DNA of 64,000 bases from positions 140,840 through 204,839 of the forward strand of contig ONHW01000001.1 of assembly GCA_900317745.1 (NCBI GenBank). Reading direction: 5' to 3'. Numbering within the stretch: position 1 is the stretch's first letter; each line of letters starts with the position of its first letter. The notes under the pieces were generated by a model. That model worked only from the letters and a program-made list of their open reading frames with translations, ran no database searches and was not told where the DNA came from. Source of the DNA: an uncultured Bacteroidales bacterium. Its GTDB lineage: Bacteria > Bacteroidota > Bacteroidia > Bacteroidales > Paludibacteraceae. Positions 9,031 through 40,902 of this stretch are shown here, in pieces. A program made the translations under genes and the position numbers.

Positions 9031-12000
9031 TTATGCTGTAATCACCTTATGCAGGCGGTCGATGTATTGCGGAACGGCTTGCGCCTTGTTGCCGAACAGG
9101 TCAAGGCAGTCGTACAACCGGAACGGATCGGTCTGCATTGTCCGGCGCTCGATGTCGCCGTTCTCGCACACGTAACGGATGATGTTCCTCAGGTACTCCT
9201 CCTGCATCGAGGTGAGGTGCTGCCCTTGAATCAGTTCGACGAACTTATCCAGCGCGATGTTCATATCCACGCCGATGATCGTGCGCAGGAACGCGGCTAT
9301 ATTGCCGCCATAGAGTTTGTAGCGATCCTGATGCAGATAGGTGCGCTCGTAGTCCTCTTTCGTGCCCAGTTCCAGCCAAAAGATGCGCTCCAGCTCGCGG
9401 ATGTCGAGTTGCGTCAACTGCTCCACGGTCTGAATCTTTTGCAGTACAGGGTTGTCGGTGTTCTCCGCCAGATAATCCATCACCCGCTGCTTGTAAGACA
9501 TTTGCGTGATGATCAGTTCGGTCTCGCCCTCATCGGTCACCACATCGCTTATATCCACGGTGAACGACTTGTTGCCGTCGCCCATCAGGTATTGCACAAT
9601 CTCGCGCAGCTCCTTGCGTACATGCTCCAGCCGTTCGAGGTTCACGTTTTCCCAGAACACCGGCGTCTGCACCATGCGTATCGTATCCATCTTAGCCATC
9701 ACCTGCGGGATAGAGGCTTTGCCTTCCAGCGCCTTACCAATCTGGATGATCTTGTTCTCGGCTTTCGTGCCCTTGACCTCGGGATTGATGAGCGAGAGTT
9801 GTTTTTGCAGCACAATGAAGTCAAACCGCCGTGCCGAGAGGTCGCTCTGCGCATTGATGAGCAGCGGTGCCAGATTGGACTTGATCATCACTGCATCCAC
9901 CTCGCTCACGTATTGCCAGTTGTCGCGCACCTTGTACTTCTCAACCAGTGCCCATTGCTTGCGCACCGCTATACGTGCCGTTTCCAGCTCGCCAATCTGC
10001 GCACAGAGGATATCCTTCAGTTCGTCATGGAAACTCTTAGCAAACTCATCGGTCTGGTAATCGACATGTTGCAGGATGACGGCTATCTCCAGCCGTGCGT
10101 TGAACAGCCGCTCCGCCAATCCAATCGTGCGCGTACCTTCCGCACCGTTGGGGTTCTGACCAAAGAACTCCAGGTTACCGCACCAGTCGAAGATATAGAA
10201 CTCTTGCTTGTCCTTACCTGCGCCGAAGATGTCCGGGCAAAGCCGCGTGCCGCGACCAACCATTTGCCAGAACTTGATCTTCGACTTCACCTGCTTGAAG
10301 AACACCAGATTCAGCACCTCCGGCACATCCACACCCGTATCGAGCATATCCACCGACACAGCTATCTGTATCTTCCGCTTGGCGGTCTCGCGCGGTTCGC
10401 TGAAGTTATCCAGCAGGTTCTGCGCGTAAGGCGCGTAGTTGTCTATCACTGTGCAGAAGTCCGCCCCGAACTGCGGATACAGCACACGGAACCGCTGCAC
10501 AATCAACTCGGCATGTTCGTGACGGTGGGCGAAGATGATCGTCTTGCCGATGCAGTCGCCGTCGTCCACTTTCAGCCCGTGCTCCATCAGGTCGGTCAGC
10601 ACCTTGTCCACCGTATCTATATTGTAGATGTACTCAAACAACTCACGGCTCTCGATGTCGCGCGTATAGACGCTGTTCGGGTCAAGCAGTTTCTTTGCTT
10701 TCTCGTACCGCCACACATCCTCCAGTTGCTCTTTCTCCTCGGGCGACAGATCATCGTAGCGGATACCGTTGCTCAGCAGGTTCGTCTCGCGCGTAAAGCC
10801 GCGGAAGTTCACCAGAAAATGGTCATCCACCGCCTCTTGCAGTTCGTAGGCGTAGGTCGGTTCGCCATGCTCCAGCCCGAACAGGTCGTAGGTTGAGCGA
10901 TCCACCTCATCGCGCGGCGTAGCCGTCAAGCCTATCAACAGGCTGTCGAAGTAGTCGAAGATACTTCCGTACTTACCAAACACCGACCGGTGCGCCTCGT
11001 CCACGATGATCAGGTCAAAACGCCCGATAGAGAACGGACGTTTGCTGTCGTCGATATAGTTAACCATCGTCTGGTAAGTGGAGAACATCAGTCGTGCGCT
11101 CAGGTCTTTGTCCTTGTCCTGCGTGCGGTCGTCGGAGAGCGTGCAGGATGATACCGACGGCATGAGTTTGGCGAAGTTCCTCGCTGCCTGGTTGACCAGC
11201 GTCGTACGGTCGGCAAGGAACAGGATGTTCTTCGCCCAATTGTTACGCATCAGCAGTTCGGTCAGGGCGATACTCACGCGCGTCTTGCCCGTGCCGGTAG
11301 CCATCACGAGCAGCGCACGACGAAAGCGCTTGTTCAGGTGCTCGCACACGGCATGGATAGCGCTTATCTGATAGTGGCGTCCGGCGATGGCTGTATCCAC
11401 TGCAAGATCGGTGATGTCTTGGCGAGAGCGTTTCTGTATGAGCAGTTCAAGGTCTTGCTCCGTATGGAAGTCGTACACCTCACGATCAGGATAACCCAAT
11501 CCGTCAATCACCTTCGTCTGGAATCCGTTGGTGTAATATATCACCGGTCGCACGCCGTACTCCTGTTCGAGGCAGTCGGCATACAGCATCGCCTGATTAC
11601 GTCCCACCTCCACGTTTTTCGTTGTGCGCTTGGCTTCGATCACCGCCAGCGGCTTGCACGAGGCATCAAACAGCACATAATCCGCATAGCCCTTGCCCTC
11701 GGCGTTCGGCATGCCCGTCACCTCAATCTCCACGCACGCTTTCGAACCCATCTTCGCGCCTTCGGTGTGCTCTATCGTCCATCCGGATTCCTCCAGCATC
11801 AGGTCGATATACAGTCGCCGTGTCTCGGCTTCGCTGATGGCATCCTCCGTAGCCAAAGTCCTGCTTGCCTCGTCGGCTATCGGCTCATCCAGTTTGCCTT
11901 CGTATTTCGCTGCCGTTTCGGCAGGGATGGCTTCGGGTTTCTCCGGTGCTTGCAAGGTAGGCGACGGCGTAGCGGGTATAAGCGCGTTATCGAACGGCGC

Positions 12001-31350: not shown

Positions 31351-32268
31351 TTATTTGCCGTCGAAACGCAGGTAGGGAAGCAGTCGTTGTCTTTCGTCGG
31401 GCGAAAAGACGGCAGACAGTTCATCGGATGAGTGCAGGCGGAGTTTGCGCCGCCTGAGGTCATAAAGTTGCTCAGCCTGCTTGTAAGAGATATACGGATG
31501 GCTATAGAGTTGCTTGACAGAGGCGCGGTTGACGTCAATCGGTGTGATGAGCGACGTATCGGCATAGAGGTGCGGAAGGAGGCTGTCGATACGATCATTG
31601 GCAATCTCGCTGATCTCATAGAGTTGGGAGGTGGAATAATAGCCACCCAAGGCCTGGCGGTAACGGATGATCTGCATAGCGGTGAACCTGCCTACACCGC
31701 GCAATAGCATAAGTTCGGTGGTATCGGCAGTGTTGAGGTCAAGAATCGTATCACGCTTGATACGTGGAGTATAAGCGGTAATGACAGTATCGGTGTCCGA
31801 TATAATACTGCCAATCCCAAAAAAACTTGCGAACATGGCAGTGTCGATCTGTATAAACGGAAGAAGAGTGGAGTAGAGCGAGTCGTTCATACCGTACAGC
31901 CGTTGCAGGTCTTCAGAACGGCGAAAAACCTTGCCGGCATTGCGGTAGCGGATCAGGTTGCGAGCCATCCATGGTTTGAGTCCGACCGTAACAAGCAGTG
32001 TGCTGTCGGCAGTGTTCGGATCAAAAGGCTGCAGACGGATAACGGGTTGCGGATAACGGGAGGCATATTGTGCACGTCTGGCGGCACGCTCCGACTCGTC
32101 CAACGAATCGAGGTAACTGAGGAAAGCCTGTTCGCGCTCGGGCTGAAGTGCAAAAAGTTCGGGAGCAGGGTGAGCAGCCTGCCACTTGCGGGTCAAATAA
32201 ACACACGTCTCTACTGCCGTAACCATCAGCAGAACGATTACCAATCCTATCCACTGCTGTTTGCTCAT
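31351..32268 (-). CDS. ComEA-like helix-hairpin-helix protein with membrane anchor
   Basis: The 305-residue protein has one N-terminal membrane segment (WIGLVIVLLMVTAVETCVYL) and three helix-hairpin-helix units: residues about 83-110 (FDPNTADSTLLVTVGLKPWM), 180-210 (LDLNTADTTELMLLRGVGRF) and 250-280 (IDVNRASVKQLYSHPYISYK). ComEA-type proteins bind DNA outside the inner membrane during uptake; Bacteroidota have longer versions like this. The gene overlaps xseA by 4 bp, so it is transcribed with DNA-processing genes. It probably binds DNA; a role in competence is not proved. Confidence 0.85.
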   Translation of the reverse strand: MSKQQWIGLVIVLLMVTAVETCVYLTRKWQAAHPAPELFALQPEREQAFLSYLDSLDESERAARRAQYASRYPQPVIRLQPFDPNTADSTLLVTVGLKPWMARNLIRYRNAGKVFRRSEDLQRLYGMNDSLYSTLLPFIQIDTAMFASFFGIGSIISDTDTVITAYTPRIKRDTILDLNTADTTELMLLRGVGRFTAMQIIRYRQALGGYYSTSQLYEISEIANDRIDSLLPHLYADTSLITPIDVNRASVKQLYSHPYISYKQAEQLYDLRRRKLRLHSSDELSAVFSPDERQRLLPYLRFDGK

Positions 32269-33419
32269 TGGGTAACGGAAGTCAGTTCGCCATCGGCAAG
32301 AACGGTGGTGATGGTTGTACCTGCGGGTACGTCGGCAGCGTGGCGGAGGACCTTGCCATCACACAGAGTAAGAGAGTAACCCTTCCTGAAAATCTGTTCG
32401 GGCGAGTGCAGTCGGACAGCCTGCTCGAACATTCGAAGTTTGCCAAGCTCTGCCTGAATCGTGTTGCTGACCGTGTATTGCAGGGTGAGGCGCAGCTGTT
32501 CGATCTGCCTGCGGCGGAGGGCTACCATCTGTGTGGCTACATGAGCCAGGCGCTGGCGCAGTTCGTCAATACGTACGAGCTGGCGGGCGTTGTGGTCGAT
32601 GAGTGCTTCGGCTACAGCGGTAGGCGTCTTGAGCGACTGATGCACCACCATATCCACGATACTCACGTCGCGCGTATGACCTATACCCGACAAGATAGGC
32701 AGCGGAAACTGTGCACAATGCGAGGCAAGGGAGTAATCGTCAAAACAAGTAAGATCGGTAGTTGCACCTCCACCGCGAATGATAACCACGCTATCGAAGT
32801 CGTCGGCCACCCCGGCAATGGCACTGAGTGCGTTGATGATCGATCGTGCCGCCTGTTCACCCTGCATGACGGCAGGAAAGAGCTGTGTGCTGAACAGCAG
32901 GCGGTACGGGTTATCCGTCAGCTGGTGGCAGAAGTCGCCGTAGCCGGCTGCATCCTCGGCAGAGATAACGGCTATGCGGCGGATAATGGTAGGCAGGCTG
33001 AGCGACTTATTCATATCCAGCACACCATCTTTCTCCAGTTGTTGCAGAGTGAGTTGGCGCTGGCGTGCCAGGTCGCCCAGGGTAAAGGCAGGGTCGATAT
33101 TACGGATATTCAGGCTTAACCCGTATATGGGGTGAAAATCCACACTGACCTCCACCAGCACCTGCATGCCCGGTTCGGGACGTTTGCCTGTCTCCTGCTG
33201 AAAATAGGCGGATATAAGCTGCCAAGTATTGCTCCAGCAGGTAGCGCGAATCTTGGCGGCAAAGATTCCTTTCTCGCCTTTCTCAACGAGCTCAAGGTAA
33301 CAGTGCCCCTTGTCCGTCAGTTGCGCAATCTCTGCACGCACCCAATACGTACCGGGCAGTCCCTGTTGAATACATTGATCCAACTCAGCGCATAACTCGG
33401 ATAGGGATAATGATGTCAT
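32265..33419 (-). CDS. xseA: Exodeoxyribonuclease VII large subunit
   Basis: A 384-residue protein, slightly shorter than E. coli XseA. The N-terminal OB-fold (YWVRAEIAQLTDKGHCYLEL) binds single-stranded DNA, and the catalytic part includes RIAVISAEDAAGYGDFC, VVIIRGGGATTDL and PILSGIGHTRDVSIVDMV. The C-terminus ends in the expected GYSLTLCDGKVLRHAADV. It degrades single-stranded DNA in mismatch repair and recombination. xseB is not seen next to it. Its ATG overlaps the stop of the upstream PD-(D/E)XK gene, so accessory and housekeeping genes share a transcript here. Confidence 0.95.
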   Translation of the reverse strand: MTSLSLSELCAELDQCIQQGLPGTYWVRAEIAQLTDKGHCYLELVEKGEKGIFAAKIRATCWSNTWQLISAYFQQETGKRPEPGMQVLVEVSVDFHPIYGLSLNIRNIDPAFTLGDLARQRQLTLQQLEKDGVLDMNKSLSLPTIIRRIAVISAEDAAGYGDFCHQLTDNPYRLLFSTQLFPAVMQGEQAARSIINALSAIAGVADDFDSVVIIRGGGATTDLTCFDDYSLASHCAQFPLPILSGIGHTRDVSIVDMVVHQSLKTPTAVAEALIDHNARQLVRIDELRQRLAHVATQMVALRRRQIEQLRLTLQYTVSNTIQAELGKLRMFEQAVRLHSPEQIFRKGYSLTLCDGKVLRHAADVPAGTTITTVLADGELTSVTQ

Positions 33420-34399
33420 AGCCCGTAGAATTTCTTCACTGATTGATCTAAATCAAAATCACACAGCACTTCTTGATAAGAAAGCGACGTTTCCAAAACC
33501 TTTAATTTCGATTCTGCTTTAATCATATTCAACTTGCGTGCGAGTTGCTTATATAAATCAACATAAGAGTTGTATGACTTATGACCTTTATCTACGTCCT
33601 CGCTGAACTTAAATAAAATCTCTCCTAAATAAATATGGTCGTAATTCTTTCCATCGCCCTCAATGAAACTATTCTGTATTCCAAGATAGTGCGAAATCAT
33701 CTGCTTGATACCTTGGCAATACTGCTGCGGTTTCCCCTTTGACGCTGAAATGGACCAAGTCTCAGTTCCACGAACAATCTCCAAATCTCTAATAGGCTGA
33801 CCATCAGCAATCAAAGCACGGTAAATATCATCATACACAAAACTAATTTGGTCATATTTACCATGCGTCAAATACTCTGAGAATTTTGATTCTAAGAACA
33901 ATATAACGGACTCGCCAGCATCATTCCTGCCAATCAAAACCACGTCCATATTTGAGTTATGCTGACCTTCCTTATCAATAGGATTCTTCTGCTCAAAAAG
34001 ACTCTTGTAGAATTCAACTTTTCTACCGTCAATCTCCATCGTTAACGGATGGTCTTTCGATAAGGAGTAAAAGCACAACAGAGCCACCAATGAAGAAGAA
34101 TGTAAAGTGGAAATCCGGCGATACTCTTGTCCATCGCCCGAAATAGCCATACAATACTTCCCTCCAAATAATTCATCCGTAATGCCAAATATATCCTTCA
34201 GATTTGCATATACCTGACATTCACTGACGTTTTTACCCATGTCTATAAAAGAGCATGAGTTTTCTGAGTACTTCCCCTGCCAATATGTCTGGAAGAGTTT
34301 TCCTTCCTTAATGCACTTCTCTACAAGAGGATTTTCCTTAAAGAATTGCTGATACAATTTGTCTTTCGGCAATTGCTGTTCTGAATTTATCTTAATCAT
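33416..34399 (-). CDS. Putative PD-(D/E)XK nuclease (restriction-endonuclease-like)
   Basis: A 327-residue soluble protein. Residues 150-176 read NMDVVLIGRNDAG and ILFLESKFSEYL, giving D152, E170 and K172, the PD-(D/E)XK catalytic pattern. The overall look resembles the PGN_0703-type putative restriction endonucleases of Bacteroidales, but I cannot confirm the match. No methyltransferase is adjacent. It overlaps the xseA start by 4 bp and is driven by a normal promoter at 34473-34504. It marks the left edge of the AT-richer accessory island. Confidence 0.7.
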   Translation of the reverse strand: MIKINSEQQLPKDKLYQQFFKENPLVEKCIKEGKLFQTYWQGKYSENSCSFIDMGKNVSECQVYANLKDIFGITDELFGGKYCMAISGDGQEYRRISTLHSSSLVALLCFYSLSKDHPLTMEIDGRKVEFYKSLFEQKNPIDKEGQHNSNMDVVLIGRNDAGESVILFLESKFSEYLTHGKYDQISFVYDDIYRALIADGQPIRDLEIVRGTETWSISASKGKPQQYCQGIKQMISHYLGIQNSFIEGDGKNYDHIYLGEILFKFSEDVDKGHKSYNSYVDLYKQLARKLNMIKAESKLKVLETSLSYQEVLCDFDLDQSVKKFYGL

Positions 34400-34472
34400 A
34401 GTTTTTATATTTTTCTCAACAAATTTGTGACTATCTTGGATAATTACGTTATTGTTCGCAATTTTGCGACTG

Positions 34473-34504
34473 CAAAGTTAGTAAATTTTTCTAAAATTTG
34501 CAAA
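34473..34504 (-). promoter_or_regulatory. Promoter of the PD-(D/E)XK nuclease gene (and possibly xseA)
   Basis: On the minus strand TTTG (34501-34504), 20 bases, TAACTTTG (34473-34480). This is the normal promoter form, unlike the two other operons of the same island. Confidence 0.65.
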
Positions 34505-34522
34505 TAATTGTCTAAAATTCTT

Positions 34523-34843
34523 TCATGAATCTTTTTTTTTGTGAAAATTCCTGTAATTCCACCAGTAAGCAATGCGCTGGAAACAATTGAGATCCTCATT
34601 ATAACAGCCATCCGGCGCTTCAATTTCAGCGATGATGTTTCGGATAGGATCCGTTATTGTCCACCACCAATATCTCCATAAAGGTTCTTGCGAGCAATAA
34701 CAATATGGATGATCGTACTCTTTTGTCAGTTCGCAATACTTATCGATGATATCCATCATCATTGCGATTTGCTTCTGTGACCCATATACCACAAATTCCG
34801 ATTTCTGGTTAGGGCCATGATAAAATTCACCTCTGTAAATCAT
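34523..34843 (-). CDS. Small Trp/Tyr-rich protein of unknown function
   Basis: A 106-residue protein with many aromatic residues (YCYCSQEPLWRYWWWTI, AYWWNYRNFHKK). No domain is recognised. Its ATG overlaps the stop of the DprA-like gene by 4 bp and it is the last gene of the mini-sigma/DprA-like operon. The tight coupling argues that it is a real gene and works with the DprA-like protein. Confidence 0.6.
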   Translation of the reverse strand: MIYRGEFYHGPNQKSEFVVYGSQKQIAMMMDIIDKYCELTKEYDHPYCYCSQEPLWRYWWWTITDPIRNIIAEIEAPDGCYNEDLNCFQRIAYWWNYRNFHKKKDS

Positions 34844-35187
34844 ATTTTAATAATTTTGACGTTTTTACCAGTTTGCTCCATTTTCCGAATGGAGTCAAAC
34901 GTTCCTTTCGATTCTCCGGACGGGAAGGCGACCATCGCATCTGCGTCATCCACGATGAGCGAGTTTCGCACTATGGGAGCCCGTCGTCCGTAAAATGAAT
35001 AATCAGGCAAATGTTCGATGAGCTTCAGGCGGTTTTCTTCGGCTAAACGCCTCGCGAAAGCGTCAATACCAACAGCACCGCCGGAAACAATTGTATCCAC
35101 ATTTGCCGAGATTACCCGACCAAGTTTTTCCTTGAATTCTTCATACGAGATACTTGGATTTCTCGTTCCAACAATAGCTAATTTCAT
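34840..35187 (-). CDS. Small DprA/SLOG-like Rossmann protein
   Basis: From the ATG at 35187 the protein has 115 residues. It has the DprA/SLOG pattern: KLAIVGTRNPS (2-12), DTIVSGGAVGIDAFARRLAE (31-50) and DADAMVAFPSGESKGT near the end. Full DprA (about 300 residues) loads RecA onto single-stranded DNA; SLOG-family proteins bind nucleotides or signalling molecules and occur in defence systems. This one is little more than the nucleotide-binding half. It lies 7 bp after the mini-sigma gene and overlaps the 106-residue gene. The longer frame from 35316 overlaps the mini-sigma gene and is rejected. Confidence 0.8.
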   Translation of the reverse strand: MKLAIVGTRNPSISYEEFKEKLGRVISANVDTIVSGGAVGIDAFARRLAEENRLKLIEHLPDYSFYGRRAPIVRNSLIVDDADAMVAFPSGESKGTFDSIRKMEQTGKNVKIIKI

Positions 35188-35194
35188 ATTGACT

Positions 35195-35476
35195 TTAATT
35201 TTGGTTAAATGGTTTTCCTTCCATCGCTTGACGAATGAACCATACGGCATAAGGAACAAATTTGCATCCACTTTCAGGATTGTACCGATGCCAAGCTTCC
35301 ACCAATCCTGTTTCACCTCTGGTCAGAAGTTCCTCCATTGGAGCCGGGTTGCCGCCGCGCAGTTGACGACGAGCAACCGACTCAACGAAGGGATGAAACT
35401 GTTGTTTGACCTGTTCGTCCGTGAGATTTTTAACTCCAGACTCAATGTTTTTTACAAATTCCAAATTTTCGTTCAT
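35195..35476 (-). CDS. Sigma-70 region 2 only protein (mini-sigma)
   Basis: The 93-residue protein (ATG at 35476; 35488 is also possible) aligns by eye with region 2 of housekeeping sigma factors. FHPFVESVARRQLRGGNPAP and MEELLTRGETGLVEAWHRYN match the 2.1-2.2 core-binding part, and GCKFVPYAVWFIRQAM matches the 2.3 part (FKFSTYATWWIRQAI in RpoD). It stops about ten residues later, so most of region 2.4 and all of regions 3 and 4 are missing. It could bind RNA polymerase core but not a -35 box. It starts an operon with the DprA-like gene and carries the shared 33-bp upstream motif. Decoy, anti-sigma or helper sigma roles are all possible. Confidence 0.72.
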   Translation of the reverse strand: MNENLEFVKNIESGVKNLTDEQVKQQFHPFVESVARRQLRGGNPAPMEELLTRGETGLVEAWHRYNPESGCKFVPYAVWFIRQAMEGKPFNQN

Positions 35477-35532
35477 ATAGAAAAACATTTAGTGTTACAA
35501 TTCAGTATGTAAAAGATCGCTATATTATATAT

Positions 35533-35565
35533 ATACGAACGAGAGGTGTTATTGTTTTTGCTAAC
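35533..35565 (-). promoter_or_regulatory. Island-specific upstream motif, copy 1 (before mini-sigma operon)
   Basis: On the minus strand it begins GTTAGCAAAAA, continues through a TAAC block and TCTC, and ends TTCGTAT. It matches the 37779-37811 copy at 26 of 33 positions. No TAnnTTTG box with a TTTG 20 bases upstream is found between it and the gene. It overlaps the stop codon of the DnaE-like gene. Confidence 0.55.
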
Positions 35566-36733
35566 GGGTAATGGAACGCAGTTCTTCTTCGAGGAGTTTA
35601 TAACAATCGCTATCTTTATCCCGAATAGTTGCAAACGCGTCCAAAAACTCCATTGGATAGTGCGCTTTGAGATATGCTACTTGGTATGCAAGCCATGTAT
35701 AGCAAACGGAATGAGCCTTTAGGAAGGAGAAACGCGAATCATACATGGACTGCCAAATACGATCAAGGGTCTGTTCGTTGTATCCATTTTGGTTCCCGCC
35801 GGATATAAACTTAGTTTTCATTACTTCCACTATAGGTTGATTCATACGTACGAGTGCCCAACGTAGCATATTACTTTCTGCTGGTGTGAAATGGGCTATA
35901 CGCTGAGCCAATAACATTGTTTGCTCTTGATAAACAATCATCCCATAGGTCTCCTTGAGACATTCTCCCACAATGGGAGGTCTTTCTTTGATCTCATCCT
36001 TACGATGCTTGCAGGCAATAAACTGCGGAATCTGTTCCATCGTAGGTGGTCGGTATAAAGCATTCAGCGCAAGAAGATCATTGATGTTTTCCGGAGTAAG
36101 TTCGCGTAAGTATTTCTGCATACCTTCCGATTCGAATTGGAATACACCAACTGTACGACCTTCTTGGAAGAGACGGAATGTATGTTCATCATTTTGTGGG
36201 ATGGCTTTTAGGTCTATGTCTATACCATGTTCCTGCTTGATATTGCTCAGGCATCGCTTAATCATCGTCAGAACGGTAAGCCCTAAGATGTTCGTCTTCC
36301 CCGGACGTGTTTCTCCGAATTTCTGTGCTAAGTAATCCGTCACTTTATCACGTTCGCAAGATTCGACATCAATATCAATTAACGGTACGACACTATTGTC
36401 TGAATAGAAACGTTCAAACAGCAGACCATATCTCAGCGGATCAATGTCGGTTATCTTGAGGCAGTACAACACGAGTGAGCCTGCTGCGGAACTGCGACCA
36501 GGTCCAACATCAATGCCCATTTTACGTGCGGCATTCACATAGTCTGCAACCATTAAAAGATAACTGATAGTACGTTCATTGGAACATAGTGTTTGGTGTT
36601 CTGTTTCTGCACGATGGGTGAAAGCAGGAGTATGAATAAACTCGTTTCCATAACGCTCAATAGCGCCTTGTAATACTTGTTGACGCAACTCTTCTTTGGA
36701 TGAAGAGGGAGAATTAAATAAATGTGTGTTCAT
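35561..36733 (-). CDS. Reduced DnaE-like protein (DNA polymerase III alpha fragment)
   Basis: A 390-residue protein clearly related to DnaE (normally about 1,160-1,250 residues). Kept: the palm start VGPGRSSAAGSLVLYCLKIT (76-95), two metal-binding aspartates in LIDIDVES (D120, D122), and the fingers from VFQFESEGMQKYL through YGMIVYQEQTMLLAQ to KAHSVCYTWLAYQVAYLKAHYP. Missing: the PHP domain, the roughly 140-residue thumb/palm segment with the HAGG motif (the sequence jumps at KFGETRPGKTNILGL), and everything after the fingers, including clamp- and tau-binding parts. The third catalytic Asp (FDFLGL in E. coli) is Asn148 (TNILGL). It is probably not an active polymerase; it may be a decoy or sensor. 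The intact frame argues against simple decay. Confidence 0.8.
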   Translation of the reverse strand: MNTHLFNSPSSSKEELRQQVLQGAIERYGNEFIHTPAFTHRAETEHQTLCSNERTISYLLMVADYVNAARKMGIDVGPGRSSAAGSLVLYCLKITDIDPLRYGLLFERFYSDNSVVPLIDIDVESCERDKVTDYLAQKFGETRPGKTNILGLTVLTMIKRCLSNIKQEHGIDIDLKAIPQNDEHTFRLFQEGRTVGVFQFESEGMQKYLRELTPENINDLLALNALYRPPTMEQIPQFIACKHRKDEIKERPPIVGECLKETYGMIVYQEQTMLLAQRIAHFTPAESNMLRWALVRMNQPIVEVMKTKFISGGNQNGYNEQTLDRIWQSMYDSRFSFLKAHSVCYTWLAYQVAYLKAHYPMEFLDAFATIRDKDSDCYKLLEEELRSITR

Positions 36734-36751
36734 TATAATAGTTGTTTTTAT

Positions 36752-37486
36752 TTAATACGGGATACCTTTCTTGTTAAAATACATAGCAGTAGCCATGTTG
36801 GAGGGTTTGAGGCGAACAACAAAAGCCAAGCGCTGTTTGAAATCGTCCTTCTCAATAGCAAGTTGCACCGCATCAAATGAGGTGACTTTTGCAAGCGGCA
36901 GGTTAAGAAGATATTGAGCCCTTACGTAGCCGATCTCAAAACGCTTCTGAAAGCGCGCACATGCCTCTTTGAGGTCTTTGGAAATGCGAACGAAATGAAT
37001 AAACTCCTCCAAATTATCTACCACAAGCCCACAGCATTCCAATTCGTCAAGATGTCGTTTGATTGCACTTATTTCCGCATCAATATGATTCATCATATAC
37101 CATGCGGAGGTATGAAGCAAGCGAACGTTACGAATACGAATGGATTTCGTATCCGAGGTTTCGAAGTCAGGCAATCCTTCATCAAAATCATCAGGTTCTT
37201 TCAGGTAGTTTTTGGGCGGTTCGGTAAATGTACGTTTGTACGTATCAACGTAGTGCTGCAAAAATGCAGCACGTTCAGTCGAGTCAGCTTGTTGGATTTC
37301 CTGTTCCACATTCTCTATGGGGCTGAAGCCGAAATTCTCCAAGAAGGAGATTTCGTTGTAGTTCGGCATGTCAATCACAGCTTGTCCTGTAGGCGTGAAG
37401 TCTAATAGATTGGGTCTCATAGTTTCTGCATTTTGAAGGCAATGCTTAGCATTGCGTGAAACATTATTGATTCGAATCTCGCGCAT
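36752..37486 (-). CDS. Protein with a GyrA/ParC-like C-gate segment
   Basis: The 244-residue protein (ATG at 37486; a TTG at 37498 is possible) has an unrecognised N-terminal half. Residues about 150-232 resemble the coiled-coil and C-gate of type IIA topoisomerase A subunits: VVDNLEEFIHFVRISKDLKE (GyrA: DNIDEVIxxIRxSKDxxEA) and RFEIGYVRAQYLLNLPLAKV (GyrA: RFxLSxxQAxAILDMRLxxL). The winged-helix domain with the catalytic Tyr and the DNA-wrapping C-terminus are absent, so it cannot cleave DNA. It overlaps the 94-residue gene and precedes the DnaE-like gene by 18 bp. It might interfere with gyrase dimers or copy their surface. The homology is by eye and needs a profile search. Confidence 0.6.
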   Translation of the reverse strand: MREIRINNVSRNAKHCLQNAETMRPNLLDFTPTGQAVIDMPNYNEISFLENFGFSPIENVEQEIQQADSTERAAFLQHYVDTYKRTFTEPPKNYLKEPDDFDEGLPDFETSDTKSIRIRNVRLLHTSAWYMMNHIDAEISAIKRHLDELECCGLVVDNLEEFIHFVRISKDLKEACARFQKRFEIGYVRAQYLLNLPLAKVTSFDAVQLAIEKDDFKQRLAFVVRLKPSNMATAMYFNKKGIPY

Positions 37487-37748
37487 AGTAAATGTCAAAA
37501 TAGCTACTTACGATGGAAGCGACTTGCGCTTCAGCTTGCTTGTCGGTGTATTGCCAGCCGCTTTCACACACGGCATAGTCAGCCAACTGAGCTTTGATGG
37601 CCAGGTGGTTGGAGGTCAGATAGTCCATGACCAGTTCTTGCAACTTGCCGCAGATTTTCTGCTGCCAATCAGCAGGTGGGTTGACGAGACAGCCCTGCAT
37701 GGACTCTAAGTTGGGGAGAGCGAATTGAATTTTGATTTGATTTTCCAT
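37464..37748 (-). CDS. Small protein of unknown function, first gene of the GyrA-like/DnaE-like operon
   Basis: A 94-residue helical protein (NPPADWQQKICGKLQELVMD, DKQAEAQVASIVSSYFDIYY) with no recognised domain. It overlaps the start of the GyrA-like gene, so the two are probably coupled. Its upstream region has the island-specific motif within a long imperfect inverted repeat, whose proximal arm ends at the ATG. Confidence 0.6.
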   Translation of the reverse strand: MENQIKIQFALPNLESMQGCLVNPPADWQQKICGKLQELVMDYLTSNHLAIKAQLADYAVCESGWQYTDKQAEAQVASIVSSYFDIYYARDSNQ

Positions 37749-37778
37749 ATTAGCAAAAATTAACGTTATAGTACCTTA

Positions 37779-37811
37779 ATACGAATGAGAAACGTTAGTA
37801 TTTTTGCTAAT
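37779..37811 (-). promoter_or_regulatory. Island-specific upstream motif, copy 2, inside a long imperfect inverted repeat
   Basis: Second copy of the 33-bp motif (26 of 33 identical to 35533-35565). Here ATTAGCAAAAAT and TAACGTT recur in inverted form at 37748-37766, giving an imperfect palindrome of about 64 bp (37748-37811). The XRE protein encoded just downstream on the map is a candidate reader. Confidence 0.55.
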
Positions 37812-37829
37812 TTTGATATGGACATATAG

Positions 37830-37863
37830 AAAAAAGCCTTGTATTCAAATGGATACAGGGCTT
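37830..37863 (-). terminator. Rho-independent terminator of the XRE gene
   Basis: On the minus strand AAGCCCTGTAT and ATACAAGGC form a stem with one mismatch, followed by a run of six T. It lies 32 bases after the XRE stop codon. Confidence 0.75.
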
Positions 37864-37894
37864 ATGGCGGGATTAGGAGAGGCGAAGATTTTTC

Positions 37895-38515
37895 TTAATT
37901 TTCCTTCAAAAGTTGTTTATAGAACGAACTTTCCTTTACGCGTTTGGCTGACCAATTACGCATGTATGTGTGTTCTTTACGCACCAATGCAACAAGACGT
38001 TTGCTCTCTTTTTCGGCTGCTTTCTCGCGCTCTGCTTCTGCGCGCTCTTCCACATTGATAGGCGCAGGAGTTGCGGGCTCTATGTTTAAATAGATATCAA
38101 GGACATCAGCAATACGCAGGAGCGTTTTGTATGTGGGCGAAGTTTGTCCGCTCTCGATGTGTGAGTAATTGGGTGCGGCGATACCTACGAGCATAGCCAC
38201 ATCCTTAGCCACAAGACCCCGTTTAAGGCGCACCTCACGAATGAGCGCACCGATATTCTGACGCACATCCTCGTCCTCAAAGAAGAGACGAGGCACGAAC
38301 CCCTCGCGCTTACAATGCTTGATGACATACGAGATGACATCTATGCGATCCGCAGACTTGATATCATCGTAAAAAAGATGCTCTATTCGAGTAGCCATCC
38401 AATCATAGGTAAGTTTACCTCGCTCTGGGGGCAACACGAACGAACAGAACAATTCGTCCTTCATCGTAAAAACCTGAACGATTTTTTCGTTGACCAATTT
38501 AACCTTAACATCCAT
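37895..38515 (-). CDS. XRE-family helix-turn-helix regulator
   Basis: The 206-residue protein (ATG at 38515) has an unrecognised N-terminal domain (1-80) and an XRE helix-turn-helix at about 89-142 (IREVRLKRGLVAKDVAMLVG, YSHIESGQTSPTYKTLLRIA). The C-terminus is a highly charged helix (ERAEAEREKAAEKESKRLVA). It is followed by a clear terminator and then by the operon with the 94-residue, GyrA-like and DnaE-like genes, so it probably controls the island. Its promoter would lie in or before gtrA. Confidence 0.8.
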   Translation of the reverse strand: MDVKVKLVNEKIVQVFTMKDELFCSFVLPPERGKLTYDWMATRIEHLFYDDIKSADRIDVISYVIKHCKREGFVPRLFFEDEDVRQNIGALIREVRLKRGLVAKDVAMLVGIAAPNYSHIESGQTSPTYKTLLRIADVLDIYLNIEPATPAPINVEERAEAEREKAAEKESKRLVALVRKEHTYMRNWSAKRVKESSFYKQLLKEN

Positions 38516-38541
38516 CAGTAAATACAAATATAAAGATAGGG

Positions 38542-39030
38542 CTATCGGCGGAAAGTGAAATATTTCTGCCCGAGGAAACTGATAACAACCGTGAGCAGGG
38601 TGATACAGATCTTAGAGGGCGTTGGATACCAGGCAAAATGCTCAACCAACAATTTGAGACCGAAGTAGTTGACTGCGAGGTTGACTCCAACAATCATTAT
38701 ATATCTGCCAAGCTGGCGTGCGCCATGCAGGGATGATTGGGTGAACGTGACATACTTGTTTAGCCAGAATCCTGTCAGCAGCGTTATTGGGAACACTATA
38801 CACAGCGAGGCTATATGCGGCGTGAGGCAAAGCGAGTGACCTGCCAAACTGAGATAAACGAGTTCATGTCCGACCACAAAATTGTACGTCAGGAAGTACA
38901 GCACCCAGTCAAGCACCATATTGCCTCCGCCGCAGGCTGCGTACCGAAAAATCTCCTTTGGTACGTACTTTTGAAACGGAGAATATACAAAATCAATAAT
39001 TTTTGTAATTATTTGTGATAATTTTTGCAT
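38542..39030 (-). CDS. GtrA-like membrane protein
   Basis: A 162-residue protein with four membrane segments in the GtrA pattern (FRYAACGGGNMVLDWVLYFL, GFWLNKYVTFTQ, ISFLGQKYFTFRR). GtrA-type proteins are thought to help move lipid-linked sugars across the membrane for surface glycosylation. No glycosyltransferase is adjacent. It has a normal promoter at 39084-39115 and faces rsmA divergently. Confidence 0.88.
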   Translation of the reverse strand: MQKLSQIITKIIDFVYSPFQKYVPKEIFRYAACGGGNMVLDWVLYFLTYNFVVGHELVYLSLAGHSLCLTPHIASLCIVFPITLLTGFWLNKYVTFTQSSLHGARQLGRYIMIVGVNLAVNYFGLKLLVEHFAWYPTPSKICITLLTVVISFLGQKYFTFRR

Positions 39031-39083
39031 TTATGCTTGCATAAATTAAAAAAAAATATTACTTTTGTGCACGAAAGCGTGTG

Positions 39084-39115
39084 CAAAGATACGACAAATA
39101 ATCCAAATTAGCAAA
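39084..39115 (-). promoter_or_regulatory. Promoter of gtrA
   Basis: On the minus strand TTTG (39112-39115), 20 bases, TATCTTTG (39084-39091). A small hairpin (GCACG-AAAG-CGTG) lies directly after it in the leader. Confidence 0.65.
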
Positions 39116-39191
39116 TTTTTGTTGCATTTTTGTTAGAAAAACGCACATTTTGTTGAACCAATCACACTAAGTATGGACTATCACCCGGATA

Positions 39192-39980
39192 ATGCAGCAA
39201 GTACGTGCCAAAAAATTTTTGGGGCAGCACTTCCTTACGGATTTGAGTATAGCCCAGCGTATAGCCGACACACTGTCATCGGCTAAGTGCCCCGTACTGG
39301 AAATTGGTCCGGGTATGGGTGTTCTGACCCAGTACCTGATAAAGAATCCGAATATTCAGTTAACCGCCATTGAGATTGACCGTGAGTCAGTCGCTTATCT
39401 GCGTGAGTGGTATCCTGAACTTCACCTGATTGAAGGTGACTTCCTAAAAGCAGACCTGAGCACAATCTTCCCGACCGGTCCGTTCTGCGTCATAGGCAAC
39501 TATCCGTACAATATTTCCAGCCAGATCTTCTTCAAGGTGCTGGAATATAGAGACAGAATACCCGTATGCAGCGGCATGATCCAGAAGGAGGTTGCCCTGC
39601 GCCTGGCAGCCAAGCCGGGTAAGAAGGATTACGGCATACTCAGTGTACTGCTGCAGGCGTACTACGATATAGAGTACCTGTTCACGGTAGGTAACCACGT
39701 GTTTAATCCTCCGCCCAAGGTCGAATCGGCAGTCATTCGCCTGACGCGTAACCAGCGCGAACGGCTGGACTGCGACGAACAACTGTTCAAGACGGTCGTC
39801 AAGACGGCTTTCAATCAACGACGAAAACAGATGCGCAATTCTCTTCAGCAGTTGGTAGGAAAAGGCAATCCCCTCCTACAAGAGAATATCTTCACCAAGC
39901 GCCCCGAACAACTGCACGTCGATGAGTTTGTTGAACTTACTAAAATGATTGAACATGGCAGAACTCAAAATATTCTATAA
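39192..39980 (+). CDS. rsmA: 16S rRNA dimethyladenosine transferase
   Basis: The 262-residue KsgA/RsmA enzyme dimethylates two adjacent adenines in the 3' hairpin of 16S rRNA. It shows the family start RAKKFLGQHFLTD, the SAM-binding VLEIGPGMGVLTQYL, the catalytic VIGNYPYNISSQI and the C-terminal AFNQRRKQMRNSL. It is on the plus strand, against most of the neighbourhood, and overlaps corA by 26 bp, so the two form an operon. Confidence 0.97.
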   Translation: MQQVRAKKFLGQHFLTDLSIAQRIADTLSSAKCPVLEIGPGMGVLTQYLIKNPNIQLTAIEIDRESVAYLREWYPELHLIEGDFLKADLSTIFPTGPFCVIGNYPYNISSQIFFKVLEYRDRIPVCSGMIQKEVALRLAAKPGKKDYGILSVLLQAYYDIEYLFTVGNHVFNPPPKVESAVIRLTRNQRERLDCDEQLFKTVVKTAFNQRRKQMRNSLQQLVGKGNPLLQENIFTKRPEQLHVDEFVELTKMIEHGRTQNIL

Positions 39981-40902
39981 GGACAACGAGAAGATCAAAG
40001 TAGCACGTACCATCAGCGCGCTCAAGCAACTCGATAAGAAAGATATCATCTGGATCGACCTGCTCGACGTATCCGACAAGACAGAGGATACGCTGGAGGG
40101 ATTCCTGAAGATCGACATCCAGGAGGATGAAGAGATGGAGGAGATCGAGATGTCCAGCCGTTATATACAGACGGACGACAGTATTGTAGCGAACTCCAAC
40201 TTCCTGCACACGAATTTCGACGTTGAGCCGGTGAACTTCATTCTGAAGAACAGTATCCTCGTTACCTCGCACGACAATGAGTTAGGGTCGTTCAACGAGA
40301 CGGTAAAGCGAATGTTCGTCAATGCCCGAAACTTCCCCACAGGTTTTCACGTGCTCGTAGCACTGATGGAGACCCGAGTAGAGAGAGATGCCGATATGAT
40401 TGAGGATACGACGGATATGATTACCGAGCTGTCCACCACTATCAACGCATCCGACCATGTGGATCAGGAAATCCTGATACAGATCAAGAACTTACAGGAA
40501 AAAGTGACTATCCTCCGCCAGAACATCATGGATAAACAGCGCGTGATAAGCAACTTCCTGAAGTGCGATTTCTTCCCCGAAGAACTGCAACCGCGATTGA
40601 CCATGGTGATCAAGGATATCAACTCACTGTTTGAATACACGCGCTTCGGATTCGACCGTCTGGACTACCTCCAGGATACGTTCCTCGGTCTGGTTAACAT
40701 CGAGCAGAACAAGATTATCAAGATCTTCACCGTGGTGAACGTCATCTTCCTGCCACCAACACTGATTGCCAGTATGTACGGCATGAACTTCAAGGTTATG
40801 CCCGAGCTGGAGTGGACGTTCGGTTACCCGTTCTCCATCGGACTGATGATCGTATTCACACTGATTGTACTGCTGATCTTCAAACTGAAGAAGTGGCTGT
40901 AA
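39955..40902 (+). CDS. corA: CorA-family magnesium/cobalt transporter
   Basis: From the ATG at 39955 (inside the rsmA 3' end) the protein has 315 residues. The N-terminal cytoplasmic domain is charged and helical. The C-terminus has two membrane segments, with the selectivity motif YGMNF after the first (IFTVVNVIFLPPTLIASM) and a second ending FTLIVLLIFKLKKWL. It imports Mg2+ or other divalent ions. The overlap with rsmA suggests translational coupling. Confidence 0.95.
   Translation: MAELKIFYKDNEKIKVARTISALKQLDKKDIIWIDLLDVSDKTEDTLEGFLKIDIQEDEEMEEIEMSSRYIQTDDSIVANSNFLHTNFDVEPVNFILKNSILVTSHDNELGSFNETVKRMFVNARNFPTGFHVLVALMETRVERDADMIEDTTDMITELSTTINASDHVDQEILIQIKNLQEKVTILRQNIMDKQRVISNFLKCDFFPEELQPRLTMVIKDINSLFEYTRFGFDRLDYLQDTFLGLVNIEQNKIIKIFTVVNVIFLPPTLIASMYGMNFKVMPELEWTFGYPFSIGLMIVFTLIVLLIFKLKKWL

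Follow-up and report, generated by a model that had tools for sequence, protein, structure and literature searches.

Why would a bacterium keep cut-down copies of its own replication, topoisomerase and transcription proteins next to a nuclease gene? The question is raised by a 64,000-nucleotide stretch of contig ONHW01000001.1 (assembly GCA_900317745.1) from an uncultured Bacteroidales bacterium, referred to throughout as the window and part of a 2.6-Mb draft genome (G000), in which xseA (32265-33419) and gtrA (38542-39030) enclose eight minus-strand genes in the order XRE, orf94, gyrC, mini-DnaE, sig2, dprA, orf106 and nuclease. A preliminary description of the window had pointed to an island of this kind, and the genes that it named were all found present, intact and on the minus strand. 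Our tentative answer, held at a little under even confidence, is that the set is a modular conflict island under XRE control, directed probably against phages or plasmids, whose dead fragments of the replication machinery would dock or trigger nucleases.

The xseA and gtrA genes are adjacent in a relative, G563 (locus L125), where about 3 bases part the start codon of one from the stop codon of the other, and the window therefore has ~5.1 kb inserted between them. GC content is 36-48% inside the island and 41-58% in the flanks, which lie mostly near 50%. The island is mobile and probably spreads horizontally.

Selection, polymerase fragments and nuclease fusions

Ten other loci were read alongside the window (L101-L106, L109, L110, L111 and L113, of which L110 and L111 are short contigs), from genomes recorded as uncultured Bacteroidales or Paludibacteraceae and sampled, in one case, from dairy-cattle rumen. 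L109, L110, L111 and L113 came from a scan of the genome collection with a gyrC profile, which confirmed eight loci, the other four being already read; the single gyrC sequence had found none. The closest locus, L103, has a mini-DnaE 90% and a sig2 95% identical to those of the window, a nuclease 63% identical, and a gyrC of which only a leader of 25 residues is left, joined to mini-DnaE. In L101 orf94, gyrC and mini-DnaE follow one another, sig2 is broken across two frames and dprA survives only as an unusable trace, while L105 (G492) holds gyrC plus a DnaE of 816 residues. In L104, L106 and L113, sig2-dprA and XRE are accompanied by additional nuclease-like genes, a nuclease-DnaE fusion, gyrC and a protein resembling DnaB-C. 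L109-L111 have the nuclease-DnaE fusion and gyrC, with mini-DnaE in L109 and L111 (L110 ends before it), and in L109 a WYL regulator stands where XRE otherwise stands. The fragments recur together in other genomes.

Nei-Gojobori comparisons gave dN/dS of about 0.04-0.35 for gyrC, mini-DnaE, sig2, dprA, orf94, XRE and the nuclease, the ratios being taken only from pairs with finite, not tiny dS, with many saturated dS left unused. All parts compared are under purifying selection, and because of this the random decay that had earlier been called unlikely is excluded for the window; an origin as decaying chromosomal copies was rejected there on the same codon-level evidence. Frameshifts or deletions in some sister loci speak for chance remnants of decaying genes, against which stand the dN/dS values, a cut-down gyrC kept at 59-79% identity among relatives, and an upstream motif common to the cassettes. 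We consider remnants extremely improbable as an explanation, and for the window copy they are already refuted. Intact frames, which had been noted for this island, hold in the window and fail in L101, where sig2 and dprA are damaged, and in L102, where a deletion has left a run-on fusion. In the latter case (L102 9347-11209) the nuclease-DnaE fusion frame runs into a sig2 fragment, the deletion having joined two cassettes.

Domain scans with Pfam covered nine window proteins and the PADLOC scan of the window covered eight. In the 390-aa mini-DnaE Pfam found a finger domain (2e-50) and an NTPase/palm domain (1e-32), and neither a PHP domain nor a clamp-binding C-terminal part. The interior of the palm is short by about 130-145 residues; in the alignment to Taq Pol III alpha, residues between ~490 and 616 are skipped, a gap that takes in the thumb plus part of the palm. 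The protein is 44-46% identical to the host DnaE (contig C18). An AlphaFold2 model (pLDDT 86, pTM 0.87), biased towards the chromosomal fold by an input of 16 sequences with ten chromosomal DnaE among them, had Pol III alpha as its top match in the PDB, with a TM-score by query of 0.84-0.88 among the best 14 matches. Pfam, the Taq alignment and the predicted fold thus bear out the description of a DnaE-like protein lacking PHP, thumb and C-terminal part.

The catalytic residues were aligned in five mini-DnaEs, the L105 form, four of the seven fusions, four chromosomal DnaEs and the host piece. While the DxD pair is intact in all five mini-DnaEs and in L105, the third catalytic Asp is lost in 5/5 mini-DnaEs (replaced by N, N, T, Q and H) and retained in L105 and the chromosomal copies. 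The L105 DnaE has PHP, palm and fingers with all three Asp kept. In all four fusions the segment with the third Asp is missing, the first Asp of DxD is lost, the second DxD position reads E, D, E and E, and the GPGR motif is degraded. Judged by these residues, mini-DnaE is predicted to be catalytically dead and the fusions appear more degraded. The graded series of full DnaE, 816-aa form, mini form and nuclease fusion would make a change from enzyme to mimic traceable.

A palm-finger tree placed all island DnaEs in one clade (support 0.996) beside the host-type Bacteroidales DnaE, its deeper placement being less supported (0.82-0.90). A phage origin of mini-DnaE was rejected, the island clade lying far from seven viral DnaEs. 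Two faecal contigs filed as 'Bacteriophage sp.', L042 (MT836180.1) and L043 (MT839029.1), encode DnaEs 48% and 42% identical; these group with the host-type Bacteroidales copy, and the contigs are likely bacterial sequence within a phage collection.

The window nuclease scores just past the PF22558 cut-off (28.4 vs 27 bits), and phmmer found no nuclease for it in the PDB. Its active site aligns as NMD...ESK, so that the D...ExK in the family core by which the PD-(D/E)XK superfamily is recognised is present; this agrees with the PD-(D/E)XK nuclease named in the preliminary description, whose activity is putative. The same NMD...ESK occurs in 10 of 11 aligned sequences, the eleventh having NFD...EIK; the alignment excluded other nuclease-like proteins of L103 (268 aa), L106 (276 aa), L101 (281 aa), L109 (321 aa) and L113 (206 aa) and the L110/L111 fusions. 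Every one of the eleven loci, window included, pairs a PD-(D/E)XK-type nuclease with a DnaE-derived module, and in seven of them (L102, L104, L106, L109, L110, L111 and L113, about four lineages given near-copies) a PD-(D/E)XK domain is fused to a degraded DnaE. In L106 the fusion continues into a DnaB C piece and a DnaB N domain, and further nuclease genes vary between loci. Of the plasmid (401) and phage (253) records that matched the nuclease-DnaE fusion, none covers 80% of it.

Phages attack the machines corresponding to each fragment, and the pieces could therefore be free decoys or guards that soak up or sense phage proteins attacking DnaE, gyrase, DnaB and sigma, the nuclease being separate cargo. 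A mini-DnaE without its third Asp that nevertheless keeps its predicted fold would suit this explanation, as would the separate nuclease gene of the window. In contrast, nucleases are present in 11/11 loci and fused to DnaE in 7/11, once with DnaB pieces, and we regard free decoys as improbable. Because the fusions in seven relatives keep the nuclease site and lose the polymerase residues wholly or partly, the aligned residues suggest fragments that partner a nuclease, and not only free decoys.

The GyrA-like part of gyrC is confined to its C-terminal ~85-90 residues, the first ~135 matching nothing. On its own the window protein falls below the Pfam cut-off (21.8 vs 31 bits, 1e-4); with a five-sequence profile, GyrA/ParC made up 34 of the 35 PDB matches within E = 1 (the best at 9e-6), and when profiles were compared, 14 GyrA segments of Bacteroidales matched with 98% and E 2e-13 over 82 columns. 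Only positions 323-420 of the 432-position GyrA profile are covered, and neither the catalytic tyrosine domain (winged helix) nor the tower of the gyrase/topo IV subunit A was matched. The C-gate-only protein claimed earlier is thus real though short, and for both the GyrA-like and the sigma-like matches, where spurious hits had been a concern, the profiles confirmed the family. Of the ten other loci, eight have an orthologue of gyrC with an open frame. Searched with the single sequence, 295 genomes of the order gave a full-length match only in its own genome, and 110 other matching genomes gave short GyrA-type matches within long frames; gyrC relatives were not found in viral contigs. A structure model of gyrC was discarded (mean pLDDT 46). 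A similar leader of ~20 residues is common to gyrC, the nuclease-DnaE fusion and the L103 mini-DnaE, as if cassettes had recombined there, and is not shown by the L106 gyrC or by L109-L111.

The XRE regulator and the shared upstream motif

The helix-turn-helix of the XRE protein is central, its N-terminal ~85 aa having no identified family. Orthologues occur in seven other genomes, all within the genus: carriers number 7/151 among genus genomes, 8/358 in the family (all one genus) and 1/198 order-wide (the window's own). Two operons of the window begin with a special motif, as had been noted before, first seen here in a repeat search as a 54-nt pair 72% alike. The 32-base motif consists of TTAGCAAAAACGATAAC, eight bases and TTCGTAT, and a pattern built from the sites found two in the window, against 0.01 expected in shuffles. 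Seventeen copies are distributed across eight loci. Six stand before sig2, four before orf94 and four before the nuclease-DnaE fusion; the remaining three each precede a single gene, of PD-(D/E)XK type twice and of DUF6946 type once. At six sites, by reading of the sites, the stop codon of the preceding gene lies inside the motif.

In the 161 genus genomes searched, the pattern occurred at 15 places in seven genomes, all 15 inside islands, and the reversed pattern gave no match. These genomes are exactly the XRE carriers (7/7 with XRE, 0/154 others). Since the pattern was built from island sites their own matches are expected; what carries information is that it is missing in the remaining 154 genomes and, in the seven carriers, everywhere outside the islands. 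The motif was not found in L109-L111. The Bacteroidetes -7 element is TAnnTTTG, which lies within 80 bases of 7/8 XRE genes and of only 1/17 motif-led genes. Because of this distribution and of the co-occurrence, XRE is the likeliest reader of the motif, with putative binding.

The sig2 protein, which corresponds to RpoS 106-161, was also considered as reader, and was weakened as a candidate by G492 (L105), where the motif is present and the only sig2-like match is the host sigma factor. RsoA of the SigO-RsoA pair is a separate protein providing only the sigma-2 domain (PMC10028694), and sig2 resembles it in consisting of region 2 only. The island differs from SigO-RsoA in this same G492 locus and in the absence of a region-4 match among the nine window proteins scanned, the rest of the genome not having been searched; the lack of region 4 likewise separates sig2 from a sigma-70 factor.

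Proposed mechanism and known systems

Under the docking mechanism that we tentatively favour, XRE would be expressed from an ordinary Bacteroidetes promoter and would control cassettes starting with the operator-like motif. The cassettes would supply PD-(D/E)XK nucleases together with dead or partial DnaE, DnaB, GyrA C-gate and sigma region 2 pieces, which may still present the surfaces needed for docking on replication or transcription complexes, and fragments fused to or lying side by side with the nuclease would bring it to the invader's fork. Alternatively, a fragment might hold the nuclease until an invader protein binds the mimic. We put docking forward because of the fusions, the constant partnership of nuclease and DnaE-derived module, the variable nucleases, and the defence-type regulators and neighbours. 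Many defence loci have XRE or WYL regulators and nuclease genes varying between loci, and defence-type neighbours were present in both neighbourhoods scanned (RloB/AAA near L104, Fic at L101).

Several observations weigh against docking. The L105 DnaE could, from its residues, be an active polymerase, and for sig2, dprA and gyrC a part in nuclease docking is not obvious. The window nuclease is a free-standing gene that no motif precedes; the L103 nuclease falls just below the PF22558 cut-off and the 303-aa protein of L101 has no Pfam nuclease match, both assignments resting on the site alignment. PADLOC gave domain-level matches only (DprA, sigma, HTH, WYL), with no known-system model for the set. 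XRE is known from a single genus, so few lineages are represented, and L109-L111, and L104/L113 in part, are near-copies, so that the 11 loci are not independent.

The pieces might instead be a selfish element's tool for recruiting or blocking the host replisome, a replication or anti-host module. This would account for the DnaB and DnaE pieces in an island that has moved, and for a mobile-type DnaG primase beside sig2 in L104 and L106. The primase, however, occurs in 33 of 151 genus genomes, only three of them (G492, G480 and G520) island carriers and the G492 copy on another contig, and was thus weakened as part of the system and looks like a neighbour. Moreover, no integrase, transposase or relaxase domain was found among the window's island genes by the Pfam-type scan, a nuclease is present in every locus read, and viral contigs held no gyrC relative and no exact copy of the motif pattern. 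We hold a replisome tool to be improbable too, about as much so as free decoys; jointly, the decoy and parasite readings retain a sizeable minority of the probability.

An addiction set of toxin-antitoxin type, with nucleases as toxins restrained by XRE and small proteins (DprA-like, orf94), appeared more improbable again. The PDB matches of the XRE profile include the antitoxin HTH proteins HipB and HigA, beside DdrO and others, and dprA matches ShosA (3e-9) and PsyrA (5e-8) in PADLOC; DprA homologues act as antitoxins in shosTA, according to PMC9122126. In contrast, dprA has no match in L102 and L105, only a trace in L101, and was not seen in L109-L111, while the nucleases stay; L109 furthermore has no XRE. 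The small DprA-like protein is the likeness to ShosTA and DprA-PRTase systems, from which the island differs in having no phosphoribosyltransferase among the nine window proteins and in loci without dprA. With respect to ShosTA/PsyrTA, the DprA-like protein is the only match, the window scans giving no toxin-partner match.

With Shedu, Gabija, Lamassu, Hachiman and others the island shares a nuclease effector and patchy presence. It differs in its replication fragments: in the main text of a review of nuclease anti-phage systems (PMC12904381) 'replisome' and 'DNA polymerase' have 0 occurrences, and in the passages of it drawn on here no polymerase or helicase fragments serve as targeting parts. 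Restriction-modification is set apart by the absence of a DNA methyltransferase domain among the nine window proteins. The MZA anti-phage system comprises a full-length MzaA plus MzaB-E, while among eight island proteins only the general sigma part of MzaA was matched (3e-5), and no other Mza protein. The island DnaEs share palm/finger homology and predicted fold with Pol III alpha, the mini form differing in its lack of PHP, thumb, C-terminal part and third Asp. No described system of the same composition was found in PADLOC or in the literature searched, which left subscription papers mostly outside. Each domain is known by itself and what appears new is their combination, so that from its genes the island may be a previously undescribed type of defence or conflict system.

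The set may also be an integrated-decoy immune system, in which inactivated pieces of the host's own DnaE, DnaB, GyrA and sigma would be coupled, as motif-led cassettes, to nucleases, and an invader would be recognised through its effects on the replication and transcription machines of the host or through what it takes from them. We consider this possible, if rather unlikely. Plant integrated-decoy receptors fuse a mimic of an attacked host protein to an effector-bearing protein, and the nuclease-DnaE fusions are alike by analogy only, without homology. What bacterial immunity is mostly known to sense are features of DNA, ends of nucleic acids or individual phage proteins; if integrated decoys are indeed present, cut-down core machines kept by selection, some of them nuclease-fused, would be a direct bacterial counterpart of them, and the fragments would name host surfaces exploited by invaders.

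Remaining features of the island and its neighbours

The coordinates of the island features are collected in Table 1. The preliminary claims of sigma region-2-only, DprA-like and XRE proteins were supported by Pfam at the E values given there. That of overlapping genes held for orf94/gyrC, dprA/orf106 and nuclease/xseA (the last by four bases) and not for sig2/dprA, which are separated by a 7-nt gap once conserved start codons are used.

Table 1. Features of the island, in window coordinates.
Feature	Position	Strand	Basis or remark
Insert between xseA and gtrA	33420..38541	.	Empty site in G563 (L125); GC drop
XRE-family regulator	37895..38515	-	HTH_3, 9e-11 (Pfam); conserved ATG 38515, ORF list start TTG 38527
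Terminator-like hairpin before orf94 operon	37831..37864	-	Read from sequence
Shared motif copy 1 (orf94 operon)	37779..37810	-	Motif alignment and genome pattern search
orf94, no assigned function	37464..37748	-	Among the set's most conserved proteins
gyrC, GyrA/ParC C-gate segment only	36752..37486	-	Pfam, PDB profile, profile-profile comparison
mini-DnaE, palm and fingers only	35561..36733	-	Pfam, Taq alignment, fold; third catalytic Asp replaced by Asn148
Shared motif copy 2 (sig2 operon)	35533..35564	-	Holds the mini-DnaE stop codon
sig2, sigma-70 region 2 only	35195..35476	-	Pfam 1e-9; PDB sigma factors
dprA, small DprA-like (SLOG family), ~115 aa	34840..35187	-	Pfam DNA_processg_A, 8e-11
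orf106, no assigned function	34523..34843	-	Overlaps dprA by 4 bases
PD-(D/E)XK nuclease	33416..34399	-	PF22558, 1.5e-6; stop overlaps xseA start codon

The orf94 protein is 91% identical in L101, 88% in L103 and 84% in L105, with dN/dS of about 0.07 against L101, and had no match in Pfam, NCBIfam or PADLOC; in four loci it precedes gyrC or a gyrC remnant. The orf106 protein is 90% identical in L101 and gave no significant family match in the library scans. The hairpin before the orf94 operon is absent from the list of a consensus terminator scan, and a similar one precedes 7/8 orf94 or nuclease-DnaE genes inspected. No RNA family reached its gathering score in 32000-40000 and no tRNA was found in the window. 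Twenty further gtrA neighbourhoods of the genus (L074-L093) were searched with the eight island genes, none of which matched; these stretches are also without xseA and are thus not strict empty sites.

Past the primase near L104, at L206 1940-3795 (G480), a RloB-like gene and an AAA_21 ATPase gene match AbiLi/AbiLii in PADLOC (1e-66 and 1e-16) and are likely a defence pair. In L101 a Fic/HTH gene (10524-11624; PADLOC PDC-S72, 5e-120) lies directly upstream of the XRE gene. Homologues ~50% identical to the L106 primase carry one in-frame TAG each in 12 genomes, including L219 (G493:C32:2851-6078), which perhaps reflects TAG recoding in a phage or plasmid.

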